This document shows, piece by piece, positions 3,902 to 16,900 of a stretch of DNA of 64,000 bases (its first letter is position 1; every line of letters starts with the position of its first letter). The notes under the pieces were generated by a model. The model had not been told where the DNA came from, made no database searches, and saw only the letters and a program-made list of their open reading frames with translations. The DNA is from Cellulomonas hominis (lineage in GTDB: Bacteria; Actinomycetota; Actinomycetes; Actinomycetales; Cellulomonadaceae). The DNA lies in contig NZ_JACHDN010000001.1 of NCBI RefSeq assembly GCF_014201095.1, positions 3,844,001 through 3,908,000 on the forward strand. The letters run 5' to 3'. A program made the position numbers and the translations under genes.

Positions 3902-4930
3902 TCAGGGTGTGCGGCTGGACGCGCGCTCGACGAGGTGCGGGGCGAGCAGCACCTGCTTGCTGCGGGTGCCGCCGGTGCCGTCGAGCTGGTCGAGCAGCAG
4001 GTCGAGCGCGCGGTGCGCGGCCTCGGTGAGCGGCTGGGCGACGGACGTGAGGCCGACGGCGGCCGCGACGGGCGTGTCGTCGAAGCCGACGACGGCCAGC
4101 GGGGTGTCGCGGCTGCGCCCGACCGTCAGCGCGCCGAGCGCGAGGGAGTCCGAGGCGCAGACGACGGCGGTGGGCGCGGCGTCGGCGAGCACCCGCTCGA
4201 TGGCCTGCGCGCCCGCGGCGACCCCGTCGGGGACGCGGGCGTGCAGCCGGCGCAGCAGGCCCGCGTCGTGCCCGGCGTCCACCATCGCGGCGGCCCAGCC
4301 GGCGGCGCGGTCCTCGCCGACGTCGGAGCCGTCGGGCCAGCCCAGGTAGGCGATCCGCTCGTGCCCGAGCCGGCGCAGGTGCTCCACGGCCGCGCGGGTT
4401 CCGGCGGAGCCGTCGACGTCGACCCAGGGGTGGTCGTCGGTCGCGGCGCCCGGGGCGGACCACGGCCGGCCGAAGGTCACGAACGGCACGTCCCGCTCGG
4501 CGAGCCAGGCGGCTCGGGCGTCGTCGCGGTGCGTGCTGGTCAGCACGAAGGCGTCGAGGTCGGCCGTGTCCAGCAGCTCGCCGTACTGGGCGATCTCGCG
4601 CTCGTCGTCGGGGGCGGTGAACAGCATCACCCGGTAGCCGCGGGCCTGGGCGCTCTCCGTGAGGGCGTGCAGGAACCGGTCGAGGACGGCGCCGTTGATG
4701 CCGTCCTGCACCGGCTCGAGCCGCAGGCCGACGACGCGGGACCGGCCGGTGCGCAGCTGCCGGGCGGCGGCGGACGGGCGGTAGCCGAGCGCGTCGATCG
4801 CGGACCGGACGCGGTCGGTGGTCTCGGGCCGCACCAGGTGGGGGGCGTTGAGGACGTTGGACACCGTCTGGCGGGAGACGCCTGCACGCTGCGCGACGCT
4901 CTCCAGCGTCGGCCGGGTCGTGCTGTCCAT
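3902..4930 (-). CDS. LacI-family transcriptional repressor of the sugar locus
   Basis: 342-residue regulator with an N-terminal LacI helix-turn-helix (residues 9-28, LESVAQRAGVSRQTVSNVLN), hinge helix near residues 50-60 and a periplasmic-binding-protein-like effector domain. The ATG at 4930 has an AGGAG site upstream; an in-frame upstream ATG at 4969 would place the operator inside the gene and is rejected. It is the first gene of the unit regulator - binding protein - permease - permease, so it is most likely autoregulated through the perfect palindrome 32 bases upstream. The inducer is presumably the imported sugar or a product of the divergent glycosidase. Confidence 0.92.
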   Translation of the reverse strand: MDSTTRPTLESVAQRAGVSRQTVSNVLNAPHLVRPETTDRVRSAIDALGYRPSAAARQLRTGRSRVVGLRLEPVQDGINGAVLDRFLHALTESAQARGYRVMLFTAPDDEREIAQYGELLDTADLDAFVLTSTHRDDARAAWLAERDVPFVTFGRPWSAPGAATDDHPWVDVDGSAGTRAAVEHLRRLGHERIAYLGWPDGSDVGEDRAAGWAAAMVDAGHDAGLLRRLHARVPDGVAAGAQAIERVLADAAPTAVVCASDSLALGALTVGRSRDTPLAVVGFDDTPVAAAVGLTSVAQPLTEAAHRALDLLLDQLDGTGGTRSKQVLLAPHLVERASSRTP

Positions 4931-5138: not shown

Positions 5139-7205
5139 ATGGAGCTCCAGCCCCTGCTGCACGACCTGCTCGCCGCCGTGCAGGCGCCCACCCAGGCCTG
5201 GTCCGACCCGGAGGGCCAGATCGGCCTGACGGAGGGCCGCGGCGCCCAGGGCGTCTACCACGGCGACGTCCGGGTCCTGTCGGGCGCGCGGCTCGCGGTC
5301 TCGGGGGCGGCGCCGGAGTCGATCGGCTCCGGCACGGACGGCCCCGGCCGGGTCCGCGCCGTGCTGCTCGCCCGCAGCGTCGACGGCCCCGGTGCCGACC
5401 CGACCGCGCGGCTGGAGCGGCTGCGGGAGGTCGTGCCCGGCGTGGTGACCGAGACCCTGACGCTGTCCTGCTCGACGGCCGAGCCGGTGCGCGCGCTCCT
5501 CGAGCTCACCGTGACCCCGGACGGCACCCCGATGGACCGGATCAAGTCCGGCGCCCCCGTGGGAGCCCCGCCGGCGGTCGAGCTCGTCACCGGCGGCGCG
5601 CGGTGGCGGGCCGACGACGAGGTCACGGCGGAGCTGTCCGCGCCCGGCGCCCGCGTCGAGGTCGCCGACGACGGCACCGTTCGCCTGGCCTGGGAGGCGA
5701 CCGCCGCCACAGGCGCCCCGCACGTCAGCACGTGGACGCTGGCCGTGTCCGACGCGGGCGGCGTGGTCACGGCCCCGCGCCGCGCCCGGCCGGAGTGGGC
5801 GACGCCGGAGGTCGAGGCCGCGGACCGCCGGCTGCCGGCGCTGCTGGACCAGGCTCTCGCCGACCTCGGGACCCTGCGGATGAGCGCGCGGTTCGCGCCC
5901 GACGACGTGTTTCTCGCCGCGGGCGCGCCCTGGTTCTTCACCCTGTTCGGCCGGGACTCGCTCTGGGCCGCCCGCATGCTGCTCCCGCTCGGGACGGAGC
6001 TCGCCGCCGGCACGCTGCGGACGCTCGCCGCCCTGCAGGGGGAGCGGACCGACCCCGCGACCGCCGAGCAGCCCGGCAAGATCCTGCACGAGATCCGGCG
6101 CGCCGAGCTGAGCATGCCCGGCGAGGGCACCGTGCTTCCTCCCGTGTACTACGGCACCGTCGACGCGACCCCGCTGTGGGTCTGCCTGCTGCACGACGCC
6201 TGGCGGTGGGGGATGCCGGCCGACGAGGTCGAGGCGCTGCTGCCCGCGATGGAGCGCGCCCTCGCGTGGATGTCCGACCACGGCGACTCCGACGGCGACG
6301 GGTTCCTCGAGTACGCCGACGAGTCGGGCACCGGCCTGGCGAACCAGGGCTGGAAGGACTCCGGCGACTCGGTGCAGTGGCGGGCAGGCGGGCTCGCCAC
6401 CGGGCCGATCGCGCTGGCCGAGGTGCAGGGGTACGCGCACGAGGCCGCCGTCGCGGGCGCGGCGTTGCTCGATGCCTTCGGACGCCCCGGCGCCGAGCGC
6501 TGGCGCGCGTGGGCCGCGGCCCTGGCCGAGCGGTTCCGGGAGGCGTTCTGGACCTCCGACGCCCGCGGGCCGTACCCCGGCATCGCGCTCGACGCTGGCA
6601 AGCGGGTCGTGGACACGGTGACCAGCAACATCGGGCACCTGCTCGGCACCGGCCTGCTGTCCGCCGACGAGGAGGCCGTGGTCGCCGAGCGGCTGGCCGC
6701 GCCGGACATGGACTCCGGGTACGGGCTGCGGACCATGTCCACCGAGTCCGCCGGCTACTGGCCGCTGCGGTACCACGGCGGAGCGGTGTGGCCGCACGAC
6801 ACGGCGATCGTCGTGCAGGGGTTGGCCCGTGCCGGGCACGCCCGGGCCGCCGCCGCGCTGGCCGAGGGGCTGCTGGCTGCCGCGCAGGACGTGGACGACC
6901 GGCTGCCCGAGCTCTACGGCGGCGACGCCCGGGGGTCCGTGCCGCGTCTCGTGCCGTACCCCGCGGCGTGCCGCCCGCAGGCGTGGTCGGCCGCGGCGGC
7001 GGTCTCGGTGCTGGGGGCGGCCCTCGGTCTGCGCCCGGACGTGCCGGGTGGGACGCTCGACGTCGCCCCGCCCGTCCCGGCGCCGCTCGGCGCGGTGAGC
7101 GTCGAAGGGCTCCGGCTGGCCGGCCGGCCGCTGTCCGTACGGGTGGCCGCGGATGGCCGGGTCGAGGCGAGCACCGACGCGCCGGTGCGCGTCCGCACCT
7201 CCTGA
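5139..7205 (+). CDS. glycogen-debranching N-terminal-domain / amylo-alpha-1,6-glucosidase family glycosidase
   Basis: 688-residue cytoplasmic protein (no signal peptide). The first 210 residues fit the glycogen-debranching N-terminal bis-type domain; from about residue 265 ([15 protein letters not shown]) an alpha/alpha-barrel glycosidase domain follows, with GWKDSGDS near residue 405 and [12 protein letters not shown] near residue 545, both typical of these families. Start chosen at the ATG after a GAGG site. It is divergent from the LacI/ABC importer operon and shares its operator, so it probably hydrolyses the imported oligosaccharide. Members of this family act on alpha-glucans but also on other alpha-glucosides, so the exact bond cleaved is uncertain. 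Confidence 0.8.
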
Positions 7206-7281
7206 CGCCGCCGGATCCCGCCGGGCCGTATCGTGGACTCCTCGTGCGCGCCGGCGCGCGAGGGGGACGGACGGTGGACGC

Positions 7282-9171
7282 ATGGGACTGCTGGACCGGA
7301 TCGGCTCGCCCGAGGACGTGCGAGCGCTGACACCGGCGCAGGTCCGCCTGCTGGCGGCGGAGATCCGCACGTTCCTCGTGGACCAGGTCTCCCGCACCGG
7401 CGGGCACCTGGGGCCGAACCTCGGCGTCGTCGAGCTCACGCTCGCGCTGCACCGGGTGTTCGACTCGCCGCGGGACACCCTGGTGTTCGACACCGGCCAC
7501 CAGGCGTACGTGCACAAGCTCCTGACCGGCCGGCGGGACTTCAGCCGGCTGCGGCACCGCGGCGGCCTGTCCGGGTACCCGAGCCGGGCGGAGTCGGAGC
7601 ACGACGTCGTGGAGAACTCGCACGCGTCGACCGCGCTGTCCTGGGCGGACGGCATCGCCCGGGCGAACGCGCTGGCCGGGCGCGGCGACCGGCACGTGGT
7701 CGCGGTGATCGGCGACGGCGCGCTGACCGGCGGCATGGCCTGGGAGGCGCTGAACAACATCGCCGACGGCACCGACCGGCGCCTGGTGGTCGTGGTCAAC
7801 GACAACCAGCGGTCGTACGCCCCGACGATCGGCGGCCTCGCCCTGCACCTCGACGCGCTGCGGACCACGCGCGGCTACGAGAGCGTCCTGTCCTGGGGCA
7901 AGCGGACCCTCAAGCGCTCCGGACCGCCCGGGCGGATGGCCTACGACGCGCTGCACGGCCTGAAGAAGGGCATCAAGGACGTCGTCGCGCCGCAGGGCAT
8001 GTTCGAGGACCTCGGGCTGAAGTACGTCGGGCCGGTCGACGGGCACGACGCGGGCGCCGTGGAGTTCGCGCTGCAGCGGGCGCGCGCGTTCGGCGGGCCG
8101 GTGATCGTGCACGTCATCACGGAGAAGGGCCGCGGGTACAGCCCGGCCGAGCAGGACGTGGCGGACCGGTTCCACGCCGTCGGGCAGATCCACCCCGAGA
8201 CGGGACTGCCCGTGGCGCCGTCGCGGTTCGGCTGGACCGGCGTGTTCGCGGACGAGGTCGTGCGGATCGGCCGCCGCCGGCCCGACGTCGTGGCGATCAC
8301 CGCGGCGATGCTCAACCCGGTGGGCCTGGCGCCGTTCGCGGCGGAGTTCCCGGACCGGACGTTCGACGTCGGCATCGCCGAGCAGCACGCCGTGACCACG
8401 GCCGCGGGCATGGCGTACGCCGGGCTGCACCCCGTGGTCGCCGTCTACGCGACCTTCCTCAACCGGGCGTTCGACCAGGTGCTCATGGACGTCGCGCTGC
8501 ACCGGGCCGGGGTGACGTTCGTGCTGGACCGCGCCGGGCTGACCGGCGACGACGGCGCCAGCCACAACGGCATGTGGGACCTCGCGGTCCTGGGCGTCGT
8601 GCCCGGGCTGCGGCTGGCGGCCCCGCGCGACGAGGACACCCTCCGCGCGGCCCTGCGCGCGGCCGTGGACGTGGACGACGCGCCCACCGTCGTGCGGTAC
8701 CCGAAGGGCGCGCTGCCCGACCCGCTGCCGGCGGTCGACGAGGTGGACGGCGTGGACGTGCTCGCGCGGCACGGGGCCGGGGCCGCGGGCGACGCGCGGA
8801 CCGTGCTGGTGTGCGGTGTCGGGCCGATGGCGCGCACCGCCGTCGCGCTGGGGGAGCTGCTCGCGGCGCACGGGCTCGGCGTGACCGTCGTGGACCCGCG
8901 CTGGGTGCTGCCCGTGCCGGCAGCGCTGGTCAAGCTCGTGGGGGAGCACGACCACGTGGTCACCCTCGAGGACGGCGTGCGGGAGGGCGGCGTCGGCTCG
9001 GCCCTCGCGCTGCGCGCCCGGGACGCGGGGATCGCCACGCCGGTGCAGGCGTTCGGGGTGCCGCGGCGGTTCCTCGACCACGCGGCCCGCGACGAGCTGC
9101 TGACGACGCTGCGCCTGACCCCGCCGGACATCGCCCGCGACGTCCTGACGGCCCTGGGCGCCACCCCCTGA
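7282..9171 (+). CDS. dxs: 1-deoxy-D-xylulose-5-phosphate synthase
   Basis: 629 residues, normal for DXS. It condenses pyruvate and glyceraldehyde 3-phosphate using thiamine diphosphate, the first step of the MEP isoprenoid pathway. Visible hallmarks: the early [12 protein letters not shown] and [12 protein letters not shown] segments, the ThDP-binding [16 protein letters not shown] from about residue 144, the transketolase-type [11 protein letters not shown], and [18 protein letters not shown] near residue 415. The ATG at 7282 gives the family N-terminus; a possible -10 (TATCGT, 7230-7235) lies upstream. Dxs beside RNase D, a LuxR gene and DUF3000 is a conserved actinobacterial neighbourhood. 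Confidence 0.95.
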
Positions 9172-9218
9172 CGTGGCCCGGCCTCGCGCGCGCGGGCGGT
9201 GCGCGCGCGAGAAGGACA

Positions 9219-9232
9219 GTGAGCGCCGTCAC
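9219..9232. promoter_or_regulatory. CRP-type site A upstream of pflB
   Basis: GTGA, six bases (GCGCCG), TCAC. Same half-site architecture as the CRP/GlxR family. It shares its last base with site B (centres 14 bases apart), so the two may be alternative. Confidence 0.45.
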
Positions 9233-9247
9233 GTGAGCACCATCACG
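9232..9247. promoter_or_regulatory. CRP-type site B upstream of pflB
   Basis: CGTGA, six bases (GCACCA), TCACG: perfect 5-base arms with the 6-base spacing of the CRP family, about 86 bases upstream of the putative pflB transcription start. Confidence 0.55.
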
Positions 9248-9275
9248 CTCCCGTTCCCGCTGGTCACGGCCCGAC

Positions 9276-9291
9276 TGGGACCTCGGTCCCA
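9276..9291. promoter_or_regulatory. DosR/DevR-like box upstream of pflB
   Basis: TGGGACC TC GGTCCCA, a 7-base-arm palindrome whose core GGGAC-N4-GTCCC is the core of the mycobacterial/streptomycete DosR (DevR) dormancy box. If TAGCGT (9314-9319) is the -10, the box is centred near -42, the position of a class II activator. Confidence 0.55.
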
Positions 9292-9305
9292 AGACATCCC
9301 ATGAC

Positions 9306-9325
9306 CTCGTGAATAGCGTCACGAG
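9306..9325. promoter_or_regulatory. CRP-type site C overlapping the pflB promoter
   Basis: CTCGTGA, ATAGCG, TCACGAG: perfect 7-base arms around a 6-base spacer, ending 28 bases before the pflB start codon. It overlaps the candidate -10 TAGCGT, so a bound protein here would be expected to repress. Confidence 0.6.
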
Positions 9326-9353
9326 TACGACGACCTCAGCGAGGGAGCAACAG

Positions 9354-11621
9354 ATGTCCACCACAGCAGTACCTCAGTCCGGCACCGACGCCACCGCGGG
9401 TGCCTGGGACGGATTCGTCACCGGACCCTGGTGTGACGGGATCGACGTCCGCGACTTCATCCAGCGCAACTACACCCCGTACACGGGCGACTCGGCGTTC
9501 CTCGCCGGGCCGACCGAGCGCACCACGGGCGTCTGGGCGACGCTCAGCGAGATGTTCCCCGCCGAGCGCGCCAAGGGCGTGTACGACATCGACAACCACA
9601 CCCCGTCGACGATCGTGTCGCACGAGCCCGGCTACATCGACCAGCCGAACGAGCTCATCGTCGGCCTGCAGACCGACGCCCCGCTGAAGCGCGCCATGAT
9701 CCCCAACGGCGGCTGGCGCATGGTGGAGAAGTCCCTCGAGACCTACGGGTACGAGGTCGACCCCGACGTCGCCAAGATCTTCTCGACGTACCGCAAGACG
9801 CACAACGACGGCGTCTTCGACGTGTACCCCCCGAACGTGCGCGCGGCCCGCTCCTCGCACATCATCACCGGCCTGCCGGACGCCTACGGCCGCGGCCGGA
9901 TCATCGGCGACTACCGCCGCGTCGCGCTGTACGGCGTGGACGCGCTGATCGAGGGCAAGCGCCTCGAGCGGCACGAGATGGACATGGAGCCGTCGGTCGA
10001 GGACATCATCCGCGACCGCGAGGAGAACGCCGAGCAGATCCGGGCGCTCCAGGAGCTCAAGCAGATGGCGGCCTCCTACGGCTACGACATCTCCAAGCCG
10101 GCCACGACCGCCCGCGAGGCCGTGCAGTGGCTGTACTTCGCCTACCTGGGCGCGGTGAAGGAGCAGAACGGCGCGGCCATGTCGCTGGGCCGGGTCTCCA
10201 CCTTCCTCGACGTGTACCTGCAGCGCGACCTCGCCTCCGGTGCGATCACCGAGGAGTTCGCGCAGGAGCTGATCGACGACTTCGTCATCAAGCTGCGCAT
10301 CGTCCGGTTCCTGCGGACCCCCGAGTACGACGCCCTGTTCTCCGGCGACCCGACCTGGGTGACGGAGTCCATCGGCGGCATCGGCGAGGACGGCCGCCCG
10401 CTGGTCACCAAGTCGTCGTTCCGCTTCCTGCAGACGCTCTACAACATCGGCCCGGCCCCCGAGCCGAACCTGACCGTGCTGTGGAGCAACCGCCTGCCGG
10501 AGGGCTTCAAGCGGTACTGCGCGCAGGTCTCCATCGACACCTCCGCGATCCAGTACGAGTCCGACGACCTGATCCGCACCTCCTGGGGCGACGACGCGGC
10601 GATCGCCTGCTGCGTGTCCCCGATGCGGGTCGGCAAGCAGATGCAGTTCTTCGGCGCCCGCGTCAACATCGCCAAGGCCCTGCTCTACGCGATCAACGGC
10701 GGCCGCGACGAGGTGTCCGGCAAGCAGGTCGCGCCGGTCAGCGCCCCGGTCGAGGGCGACGTCCTGGACTACGAGGACGTGGCGGCGAAGTACGACAAGC
10801 TGCTCGACTGGCTGGCCGAGACCTACGTCGACGCGCTGAACTGCGTGCACTACATGCACGACAAGTACGCGTACGAGCGCCTCGAGATGGCCCTGCACGA
10901 CCGGGCGATCCTGCGGACCATGGCCTGCGGCATCGCCGGCCTGTCGGTCGTCGCGGACTCGCTCTCGGCCATCAAGTACGCCAAGGTCACGCCGGTGCGG
11001 GACGAGGACGGCCTGGTGACGGACTACGTCATCGAGGGCGACTACCCGAAGTACGGCAACGACGACGACCGCGCGGACGACATCGCGGTGGGCATCACCA
11101 AGGCCTTCATGGAGAAGATCCGCCACCACAAGACGTACCGCAACGCGCTGCACACGCAGTCGGTGCTGACGATCACCTCGAACGTCGTGTACGGCAAGGC
11201 CACGGGCAACACCCCCGACGGCCGCCGCGCCGGCGAGCCGTTCGCCCCGGGCGCCAACCCGATGAACGGGCGCGACTCGCACGGCATGCTCGCCTCCGCC
11301 ATGTCGGTCGCGAAGCTGCCGTACTCCGAGGCGATGGACGGGATCTCGCTCACCTCGACGGTCGTGCCCTCGGGCCTCGGCCGCACCAAGGACGAGCAGG
11401 TGACGAACCTCGTGGGCCTCATGGACGCGTACAACGTGTCCTCCGGGTACCACCTGAACGTCAACGTCCTCAACCGGGACACCCTCGAGGACGCCATGGA
11501 GCACCCCGAGAAGTACCCGCAGCTCACCATCCGGGTCTCCGGCTACGCCGTGAACTTCGTCCGGCTGACGCGCGAGCAGCAGCTCGACGTGCTCTCCCGG
11601 ACGTTCCACGGCGGCATCTGA
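9354..11621 (+). CDS. pflB: formate C-acetyltransferase (pyruvate formate-lyase)
   Basis: 755 residues, close to the 760 of E. coli PflB. It converts pyruvate and CoA to acetyl-CoA and formate under anaerobiosis. The catalytic pair Cys419-Cys420 ([14 protein letters not shown]) and the C-terminal glycyl-radical site RVSGYAV, with the radical on Gly730, are intact. The ATG at 9354 is chosen because GAGGGAG precedes it at 9341-9347; an upstream in-frame GTG (9309) would lie in the regulatory palindrome. The activase gene follows 89 bases downstream. Regulation probably combines CRP-type and DosR-like proteins, judged from the palindromes in the 183-base leader. PFL is oxygen-sensitive, so its presence implies real fermentative growth. 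Confidence 0.97.
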
Positions 11622-11710: not shown

Positions 11711-12589
11711 ATGACCGGCACAGTCGAGCAGGTGGGCGCCCCGGTGATCGAGCTCGGGCTCCCGCTGGTCGGGGGCTCGCACCAGCGCTCGTCGGCCGGC
11801 ACCGCCGGCCTCGAGGTGAGCGAGGCGGACCGCTCCGAGCGGTTCGCGCAGATGCGGGCCGGCGAGCTGGGCTCGCTGCACTCCTGGGAGCTCGTCACCG
11901 CGGTGGACGGCCCCGGCACCCGCCTCACGACGTTCCTGGCCGGCTGCCCGCTGCGCTGCCTGTACTGCCACAACCCCGACACGATGGAGATGCGCCGCGG
12001 CGAGCCGGTGCTCGCCGAGGAGCTGCTCCGCCGCATCGCCCGCTACGTGCCGGCGTTCTCGGTGACCGGCGGCGGTCTGACCATCTCGGGCGGCGAGCCG
12101 CTCATGCAGCCGGCCTTCGTGGCCCGCCTCCTGCGCGGGGCCAAGGAGCTCGGCGTGCACACCGCGATCGACACCTCCGGCTACCTCGGCGCGCACTGCA
12201 CCGACGCGATGCTGGCGGACATCGACCTGGTGCTGCTGGACGTCAAGTCCGGCATCCCCGAGACCTACAAGAGGACCACCGGCCGCGAGCTCCAGCCGAC
12301 GCTGGACTTCGGCCGCCGGGTCGCCGCGAGCGGGACCGAGATCTGGATCCGGTTCGTGCTGGTGCCCGGCCTGACGGACGCCGTCGAGAACGTCGACGCC
12401 GTCGCCGACTACGTCGCCACGCTGTCCACCGTGTCCCGCGTCGAGGTGCTGCCGTTCCACCAGATGGGCCGGGACAAGTGGGCGAGCCTCGGCATGGACT
12501 ACGAGCTCGAGGATGCCCAGCCGCCGAGCCCCGAGCTGGTCGCCCGGGTGCGCCAGCAGTTCCGGGACCGCGGGCTCACCGTCTTCTGA
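11711..12589 (+). CDS. pflA: pyruvate formate-lyase-activating enzyme (radical SAM)
   Basis: 292-residue radical-SAM protein that installs the glycyl radical on PflB. The CxxxCxxC cluster motif is Cys79, Cys83, Cys86 (CPLRCLYC); the SAM-contacting GGE-type motif appears as TISGGEPLMQ. Compared with E. coli PflA (246 residues) it has about 50 extra residues at the N-terminus, before the LHSWELVTAVDGPGTR core. The start ATG has a strong GAGGAGG site at 11698-11704. It pairs with the upstream pflB and presumably shares its promoter. Confidence 0.95.
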   Translation: MTGTVEQVGAPVIELGLPLVGGSHQRSSAGTAGLEVSEADRSERFAQMRAGELGSLHSWELVTAVDGPGTRLTTFLAGCPLRCLYCHNPDTMEMRRGEPVLAEELLRRIARYVPAFSVTGGGLTISGGEPLMQPAFVARLLRGAKELGVHTAIDTSGYLGAHCTDAMLADIDLVLLDVKSGIPETYKRTTGRELQPTLDFGRRVAASGTEIWIRFVLVPGLTDAVENVDAVADYVATLSTVSRVEVLPFHQMGRDKWASLGMDYELEDAQPPSPELVARVRQQFRDRGLTVF

Positions 12590-16213: not shown

Positions 16214-16777
16214 TCAGGCGAGCAGGCCGGTCCGGATGGAGATGGCCACGAGCGCGGCGCGGTCGCCGGTGCCGAGCTTGCGGGAGATCCGGGCGAGGTG
16301 GCTCTTCACGGTGAGCGCGGACAGGCCGAGCTCGTCGCCGATGGCGCGGTTGCTGAACCCGTCGGCCACGAGGCGCAGCACGGACAGCTCGCGGGAGGTG
16401 AGGTCGGGGCGGGTGCGCGCGAACGGCGACGGGACCGCGCCCGGGGCGGCGCCCGGCTGCCCGACGACGGCGTTCGGCTCCGTGGCGACGGCGCCGCGCA
16501 GGCCTCCGGTCAGCAGGCCGACCAGGTCCCGGCGCCCCGCCCGGCGGGCGAGCAGGATGACGCGGCCGGAGCCGCGGCGGCGCAGGTTCCGCACCAGCGT
16601 CTGGCCGTCGCCCTCGCCGAGCTCGGTCACGACGACGCACATCTGGCCGAGGCCGCGGCGGCGCGGATCGGCGGCCGGGGCCCCCGGACGGCGCGTCTGC
16701 GGCAGGGTGGCCGCGCGGGCACCCGTCGGCGCGCCCGGCGCCAGGCCGGGTCCACGTCGGATCGGCTCGATGCTCAC
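16214..16777 (-). CDS. LuxR-family regulator with degenerate receiver-like domain
   Basis: 187 residues from a GTG preceded by AGGGGG at seven bases; an ATG at 16801 is the alternative. Residues 125-185 are a clear GerE/LuxR helix-turn-helix (LTSRELSVLRLVADGFSNRA, then TVKSHLARISRKL). Residues 45-100 resemble the second half of a receiver domain (VVVTELGEGDGQTLVRNL), but the usual phosphoacceptor Asp is replaced and the early acidic pair is absent. It is therefore probably not a phosphorylated response regulator. It sits between RNase D and DUF3000, its conserved place in Actinobacteria, and has a CRP-type site about 110 bases upstream. Confidence 0.85.
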   Translation of the reverse strand: MSIEPIRRGPGLAPGAPTGARAATLPQTRRPGAPAADPRRRGLGQMCVVVTELGEGDGQTLVRNLRRRGSGRVILLARRAGRRDLVGLLTGGLRGAVATEPNAVVGQPGAAPGAVPSPFARTRPDLTSRELSVLRLVADGFSNRAIGDELGLSALTVKSHLARISRKLGTGDRAALVAISIRTGLLA

Positions 16778-16884
16778 GGCGGTGCCCCCTTGACGGTCCA
16801 TTCCCTTGCCCCCTGTATCGGCCCGTCACGCCCCTGTCTTGAGCGGAACGGGTGACATCGTGTCGTGCCGCGTCGCGGTTGTCA

Positions 16885-16900
16885 CGTGACGGAGGTCACG
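16885..16900. promoter_or_regulatory. CRP-type site upstream of the LuxR-family gene
   Basis: CGTGA, six bases (CGGAGG), TCACG. The arms and spacing are identical to pflB site B. The same stretch also forms GTCACGTGAC (16881-16890). Confidence 0.5.

Follow-up and report, generated by a model that had tools for sequence, protein, structure and literature searches.

A predicted DosR/DevR-type promoter with an upstream CRP-type site in front of pflB in Cellulomonas

Which signals may control fermentation through pyruvate formate-lyase in Cellulomonas hominis? The question is raised by a stretch of 64,000 nucleotides, hereafter the window (positions 3,844,001-3,908,000 of the 4.49-Mb genome), in which dxs, a leader, pflB and pflA follow one another on one strand. 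The pflB gene (9354..11621, + strand) encodes a formate C-acetyltransferase (TIGR01255, 1184 bits for a cut-off of 994; PF02901 and PF01228), and pflA (11711..12589, +) encodes the pyruvate formate-lyase-activating protein (TIGR02493, 299 bits, cut-off 232). The upstream neighbour dxs (7153..9171, +; TIGR00204, 585 bits, cut-off 466) bounds the leader. About 4.6 kb past the end of pflB, the minus strand encodes a short LuxR/GerE output-domain protein of 195 amino acids (16214-16801), of which the family scan matches the C-terminal DNA-binding part only. A preliminary description of the leader had reported three stacked GTGA-N6-TCAC palindromes and read them as CRP-type sites, one of them in a repressor position over the -10. 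The exact matches found here confirm their coordinates and arm lengths: site A (GTGAGCGCCGTCAC, 9219-9232) has arms of 4, site B (CGTGAGCACCATCACG, 9232-9247, with the exact core GTGAGCACCATCAC at 9233-9246) has arms of 5, and site C (9306-9325, with the exact core GTGAATAGCGTCAC at 9309-9322) has arms of 7 that read CTCGTGA/TCACGAG. Sites A and B indeed have base 9232 in common, and the three palindromes do span 107 bases. An asymmetric core common to the three sites was also seen by eye.

Exact GTGA-N6-TCAC occurs five times in the window for 0.80 expected upon dinucleotide shuffling, and none of 600 shuffles had even two copies inside 107 bp. Once the two outer bases of a CRP site are added, the excess disappears: TGTGAN6TCACA with up to two mismatches occurs nine times in the window for 8.57 expected. 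Genome-wide, the exact palindrome is hardly enriched, with 57 copies in 4.49 Mb against about 50 when the window shuffles are scaled up. The cluster is thus unusual, yet the motif alone does not prove that these are CRP sites, and position and conservation must therefore decide. Genome-wide excess was dropped as evidence, for the palindrome as well as for the box described below (45 exact copies, that of pflB included, versus about 31 scaled from shuffles). The reversed-pattern controls, with 13 matches for the palindrome and 3 for the box, exaggerate the enrichment; that for the palindrome is a poor null because its dinucleotide content is altered. The pattern GTCCCNNGACATCCCA, scanned across the genus with two mismatches, gave several matches in each of 80 genomes and was rejected as too loose. 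The two further exact palindromes of the window lie at 4617-4630 and 16886-16899.

A search for PflB in 118 related genomes detected it in 83 of them. Seventy pflB leaders were examined (30 loci and 40 stretches), 66 from the same genus and four from two other genera; lower-identity second pflB copies, fragments and most matches from other orders lie outside this set. Fifty-six leaders, all from the same genus, could be anchored on GGTCCCAAGACATCCCATGA with at most six mismatches, the other 14 of the 70 being unanchored, and the anchored leaders were split by closeness into 13 closest and 43 less close ones. Site A is present in only one of the 56, the window's own, which is the sole leader where the exact motif occurs twice upstream of the box. 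Among the genomes tested it is private to the source genome, and it is probably incidental. Both arms of site C (GTGA and TCAC) are present in 10 of the 56 leaders, and neither the left nor the right arm is found in the 43 less close ones, while the spacer with the -10 (TANNNT) is kept in 53 of the 56. No base of the 6-base spacer varies among the 13 closest leaders; one inner arm base is kept in 10 of them, and some outer arm positions vary too. A repressor at site C is therefore not indicated, since the arms are lost and the -10 within the spacer is kept; to judge by the alignment, site C belongs to the core promoter, as its -10 region. The preliminary description had named a lack of arm conservation in the pflB leaders of close relatives as grounds for refutation. 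By this rule sites A and C are not supported as operators; site B recurs in 35 of the 56 leaders. A model with three CRP-family sites, in which a repressor would sit at C over the -10 and A and B would be alternative upstream sites, would account for the exact motifs and their rare clustering, and it agrees with the presence of a Crp-family protein and with the conservation of site B. It is nevertheless quite improbable, given the fate of site A and of the site C arms among the relatives, and it leaves unexplained the stronger conservation of another element.

This element, absent from the list of the preliminary description, is the most conserved one of the leader. It is a perfect 16-base palindrome, TGGGACCTCGGTCCCA, at 9276-9291, between sites B and C, and its core GGGACCTCGGTCCC at 9277-9290 is an exact GGGAC-N4-GTCCC. 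The published DosR motif TTSGGGACTWWAGTCCCSAA shares this core (PMC2275270), and the hspX probe described in PMC12919924 includes GGGTCAATGGTCCC and GGGACTTCTGTCCC. If TAGCGT at 9314..9319 (+), 23 bp after the box, is taken as the -10, transcription is predicted to start near 9326, the box is centred at -42.5, and AAGACA at 9291..9296 (+), which touches the box and ends 17 bp before the -10, becomes the predicted -35. Dev boxes near the transcription start overlap the -35, a feature common to the DevR targets analysed in PMC3029386. A promoter-proximal box that would likewise overlap the -35, relative to the predicted start, is found in 66 of the 70 pflB leaders for 0.11 expected from shuffles, when at least 8 of 10 arm bases, then a gap of 23 or 24 bp, then TANNNT are asked for. 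The four leaders without it belong to extra pflB copies in four genomes (G052, G020, G018 and G055), each of which has the box before its other copy. TAGCGT itself is read in 39 of the 66 leaders with the box. The left arm of the box lies outside the anchor, and three of its positions, 7, 6 and 4 bases before the GGTCCC of the anchor, show G, G and C in every one (100%) of the 56 anchored leaders; the other two are G in 89% and A in 75%. The fourth arm position is an A-T pair in 42 of the 66 leaders, T-A once, C-G once and unpaired in 22, so pairing is common and not absolute.

The predicted core promoter is conserved as well. GACA of the -35 is invariant in the 56 anchored leaders, the anchor used for their selection itself containing GACA. 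In the promoter spacer, TCCCATGA (9297..9304, +) is strongly conserved as TCCCATGA or TCCCATCA according to the column frequencies of the same 56 leaders, and it too belongs to the anchor; one group of leaders has GACATGGGAT in its place, and the unanchored leaders differ. We know of no known element that accounts for it. A sigma-70 consensus scan of the leader returned no promoter, and a terminator scan and Rfam returned nothing for it. No match to the FNR box TTGAY-N4-RTCAA was found with up to two mismatches in 9172-9353.

Counted as exact matches, the box of the pflB leader is the only one in the 64-kb window, where 0.54 are expected; GC-rich DNA readily yields such boxes, and the motif is unremarkable by itself. 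A further sign, which does not come from pflB relatives, is its position relative to a -10. On the 90 sides of the 45 exact boxes of the genome, TANNNT lies 8 times at gaps of 23 or 24 bp, and all the remaining 59 gaps account for 18 cases, so that some of the exact boxes, a minority, resemble promoters. In the genome the half-box pattern GTCCCN{22,24}TAGNGT has 8 matches versus 2 for its reversed control, and the full box is present at three of them, pflB, adhE and feoA. The exact box upstream of adhE (genome 609416-609429) lies 23 bp before TAGCGT. The protein encoded there matches PRK13805 partially and below the cut-off, because the fetched frame is cut. When adhE was sought in 58 related genomes, 39 had a match at E below 1e-120. 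Thirty loci were fetched and 28 used, two (L275 and L282) being omitted for their short flanks. The box followed after 23 or 24 bp by TANNNT is found in 27 of these 28 leaders at 8 of 10 arm bases and in all 28 at 7 of 10, for 0.02 and 0.22 expected from shuffles. No exact CRP-type motif was found above the 11 adhE leaders scanned. Box and spacing being alike in the two places, the formation of formate and acetyl-CoA and that of ethanol are probably switched together. The third place is ahead of feoA-feoB (ferrous iron uptake), where an exact box at genome 2599774-2599787 lies 24 bp before TAGCGT. It could be argued that the conserved block of the pflB leader is nothing else than a strong constitutive core promoter, its palindromes being by-products of GC-rich sequence, and the genome counts close to shuffle expectation would agree with this. 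We consider it scarcely probable, given that three bases of the left arm never vary although this arm is over 30 bp away from the -10, on its upstream side, and that the box recurs with its spacing before adhE.

A candidate for the protein that would bind the box is a DosR-like response regulator of the receiver-GerE type, encoded at genome 339471-340106. Among PDB entries it matches DevR best (3c3w, E 8.5e-49). It keeps the residues K-T-V-K-N, and within this stretch lie K179, K182 and N183, reported as core DNA-contacting residues (PMC5999986). The gene adjoining that of the regulator, in convergent orientation (337682-339448), encodes a kinase with GAF, HisKA_3 and HATPase domains. Its first GAF domain is similar to those of DosT and DevS, at E 2e-27 to 1e-26, and the aligned His and Tyr, which we take to be the haem-side residues, are kept. 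Of 72 same-genus genomes, 70 have a match to the regulator at E below 1e-40; the assemblies of the other two are 84% and 67% complete. In three Cellulomonas genomes (G005, G022 and G024) the match is only 48-50% identical and the box is kept. The distant DosR-like gene of these three genomes reads KTVKN, and a haem-GAF-like sequence is found about 1 kb away. This pattern is against a strict one-orthologue link and favours a DosR-type system there too; it could mean that the system was replaced in these genomes. The candidate was chosen by eye among 28 GerE-type matches of the genome, and the PDB comparison was made for that one alone, which leaves room for another NarL-family regulator at the box. 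The user of the box may thus be a different protein of the NarL/LuxR family, or the second DosR-like paralogue at 3668786-3669421 (42% identity), an alternative that overlaps with the best explanation and differs from it in the protein named. The many GerE matches and the three genomes that keep the box with no close orthologue speak for it. We nevertheless regard it as unlikely, considering that the box fits the published DosR motif and that the paralogue has RTVKR instead of KTVKN. Moreover, the protein at 339471-340106 is the one with DevR as best match, with a DevS-like GAF kinase beside it and with a match in almost all of the 72 same-genus genomes.

Site B fared better than its two companions. 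When the 85 bp above the box are searched for the 16-mer closest to TGTGAN6TCACA, it matches at 8 or 9 of 10 positions in 35 of the 56 anchored leaders for 0.6 expected. At least 8 of 10 is reached in all 13 close leaders and in 22 of the 43 others, and 21 of the 56 are below this value; the window's own site B has 8 of 10 to TGTGA-N6-TCACA. The distance between the centres of site B and of the box is about 43-44, 32-33 or 22-23 bp in 33 of the 35 leaders, and 29 and 26 bp in the two others, and these three classes place the predicted centre of site B at -86.5, -75.5 and -65.5. The spacing thus appears to shift mostly by about one helical turn. The Rayleigh length peaks near a period of 10.5 bp at 0.84 for the 35 sites and at 0.80 with the closest group cut to two, while it is only 0.55 over the 8 distinct distances and the statistic ignores kinship. 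Within the closest group, two leaders are offset by exactly 11 bp from the other eleven, with the arms kept. In the M. smegmatis cydA promoter the Crp1 sites are placed at -101..-86 and -73..-58, distances comparable to those of the predicted site B centres (PMC7739888).

A protein that may bind site B is encoded as well. Two CRP/FNR-type proteins stand out in the genome, one of them a more distant family member. The other, the Crp orthologue, matches the CRP/FNR-family PDB entries 3mzh, 3d0s and 3h3u, presumably M. tuberculosis CRP, at E around 1e-81, with an identical helix RETVNK, and it is matched at E below 1e-70 in 47 of the 48 same-genus genomes searched. Of the three sites proposed in the preliminary description, site B is therefore the one that stands as a CRP-type site, by its recurrence in Cellulomonas pflB leaders and by the matching recognition helix of the encoded Crp. 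It is plausible that such a switch couples fermentation to carbon or energy status. The palindromes could also be operators of Rex, which responds to NADH/NAD; a Rex protein is encoded in the genome (PF06971, 61.8 bits). A single mismatch separates site C from GTGAAN4TTCAC, near matches to this pattern number 3 in the window for 0.27 expected (site C, 4617 and 58798), and exact matches are present in 6 of 35 pflB leaders of other genera (two Isoptericola and four Streptomyces). The near match at 4617 is the palindrome at 4617-4630 already mentioned. The Rex consensus has inner A/T. Sites A and B are without these and not within one mismatch of the pattern, which has no exact copy in the window; site C is not conserved, and the conserved copies of site B read, for example, GTGAGCACCGTCAC or TGTGACCCGGGGCACA. 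Control by Rex at these sites thus appears very improbable.

The sequence comparisons make it rather likely that the pflB leader acts as a DosR/DevR-type promoter for low oxygen and that the CRP-type site upstream has a co-regulatory role. When oxygen falls, the DevS/DosT-like GAF kinase (337682-339448) would phosphorylate the DosR-like regulator (339471-340106), a dimer of which would bind GGGACCTCGGTCCC, centred at -42.5 and touching the weak -35. The bound regulator would recruit RNA polymerase to TAGCGT at 9314-9319, a class II promoter for anaerobic expression of pflB. The Crp orthologue may bind site B, which depending on the species is set back from the centre of the box by some two, three or four helical turns, and would tune the output according to cAMP or energy state, probably as a co-activator. 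Site C would coincide with the core promoter, and site A would be a repeat private to this genome.

This arrangement resembles known systems in part. As in Mycobacterium, a GGGAC-N4-GTCCC core is predicted to lie over the -35, and a DosR-like regulator and a DevS-like GAF kinase are encoded. In contrast to the mycobacterial DosR/DevR targets, the predicted ones of Cellulomonas are the fermentation genes pflB and adhE, a CRP-type site lies upstream, and the exact box is single; two or more boxes are known from several targets, a common trait of such promoters though no requirement. The OsdR of Streptomyces is a DosR orthologue with a related palindrome, AGGGCCGATCGGCCCT (PMC5069765); in S. lividans a putative PFL is grouped with genes described as the OsdR regulon, which constitutes a precedent (PMC6302529). 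There, the putative pfl gene is close to osdR (SCO0206 versus SCO0204 in the numbering of the genes), whereas in the source genome a long distance separates pflB from the regulator gene, and pflB has a predicted promoter to itself, with a fixed spacing and a CRP-type site. The mycobacterial Crp sites TGTGA-N6-TCACA, such as those of M. smegmatis cydAB (PMC7739888), are like site B in half-sites and spacing and lie at comparable distances upstream, and a Crp-family protein with the same recognition helix is present in both. The window's site B differs by its GC-rich outer bases and by sharing a promoter with a DosR-type box. Distinctive for Cellulomonas are the genus-wide wiring of pflB together with adhE and a CRP-type site that changes its place. 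Our literature search, which had most subscription journals outside it, returned no publication on DosR-type control of pflB in Cellulomonas.

A broader proposition, to which we give an even chance, is that in Cellulomonas the DosRS "dormancy" system is the main oxygen switch of fermentation, replacing at pflB and adhE the role of FNR, ArcA or Rex, and that at pflB CRP is integrated by way of a site that evolution has displaced, for the most part, by full helical turns. If true, the oxygen sensor behind fermentation in facultative cellulose-degrading actinobacteria could be named, and a regulon known from work on dormancy in mycobacteria would serve active fermentation elsewhere. The natural variants, with many species, CRP-type sites at steps of about 11 bp and altered box arms, make co-activation by CRP and a response regulator directly testable, and this in soil bacteria that are harmless. 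To look beyond the genus, pflB leaders were read at 37 of 80 loci, 35 of them from other genera and two from Cellulomonas, a reading that comes with no null model and is a lead only. Those of Microbacterium, Isoptericola and Agromyces are among the leaders without a box-like sequence, and some other-genus leaders do have one.
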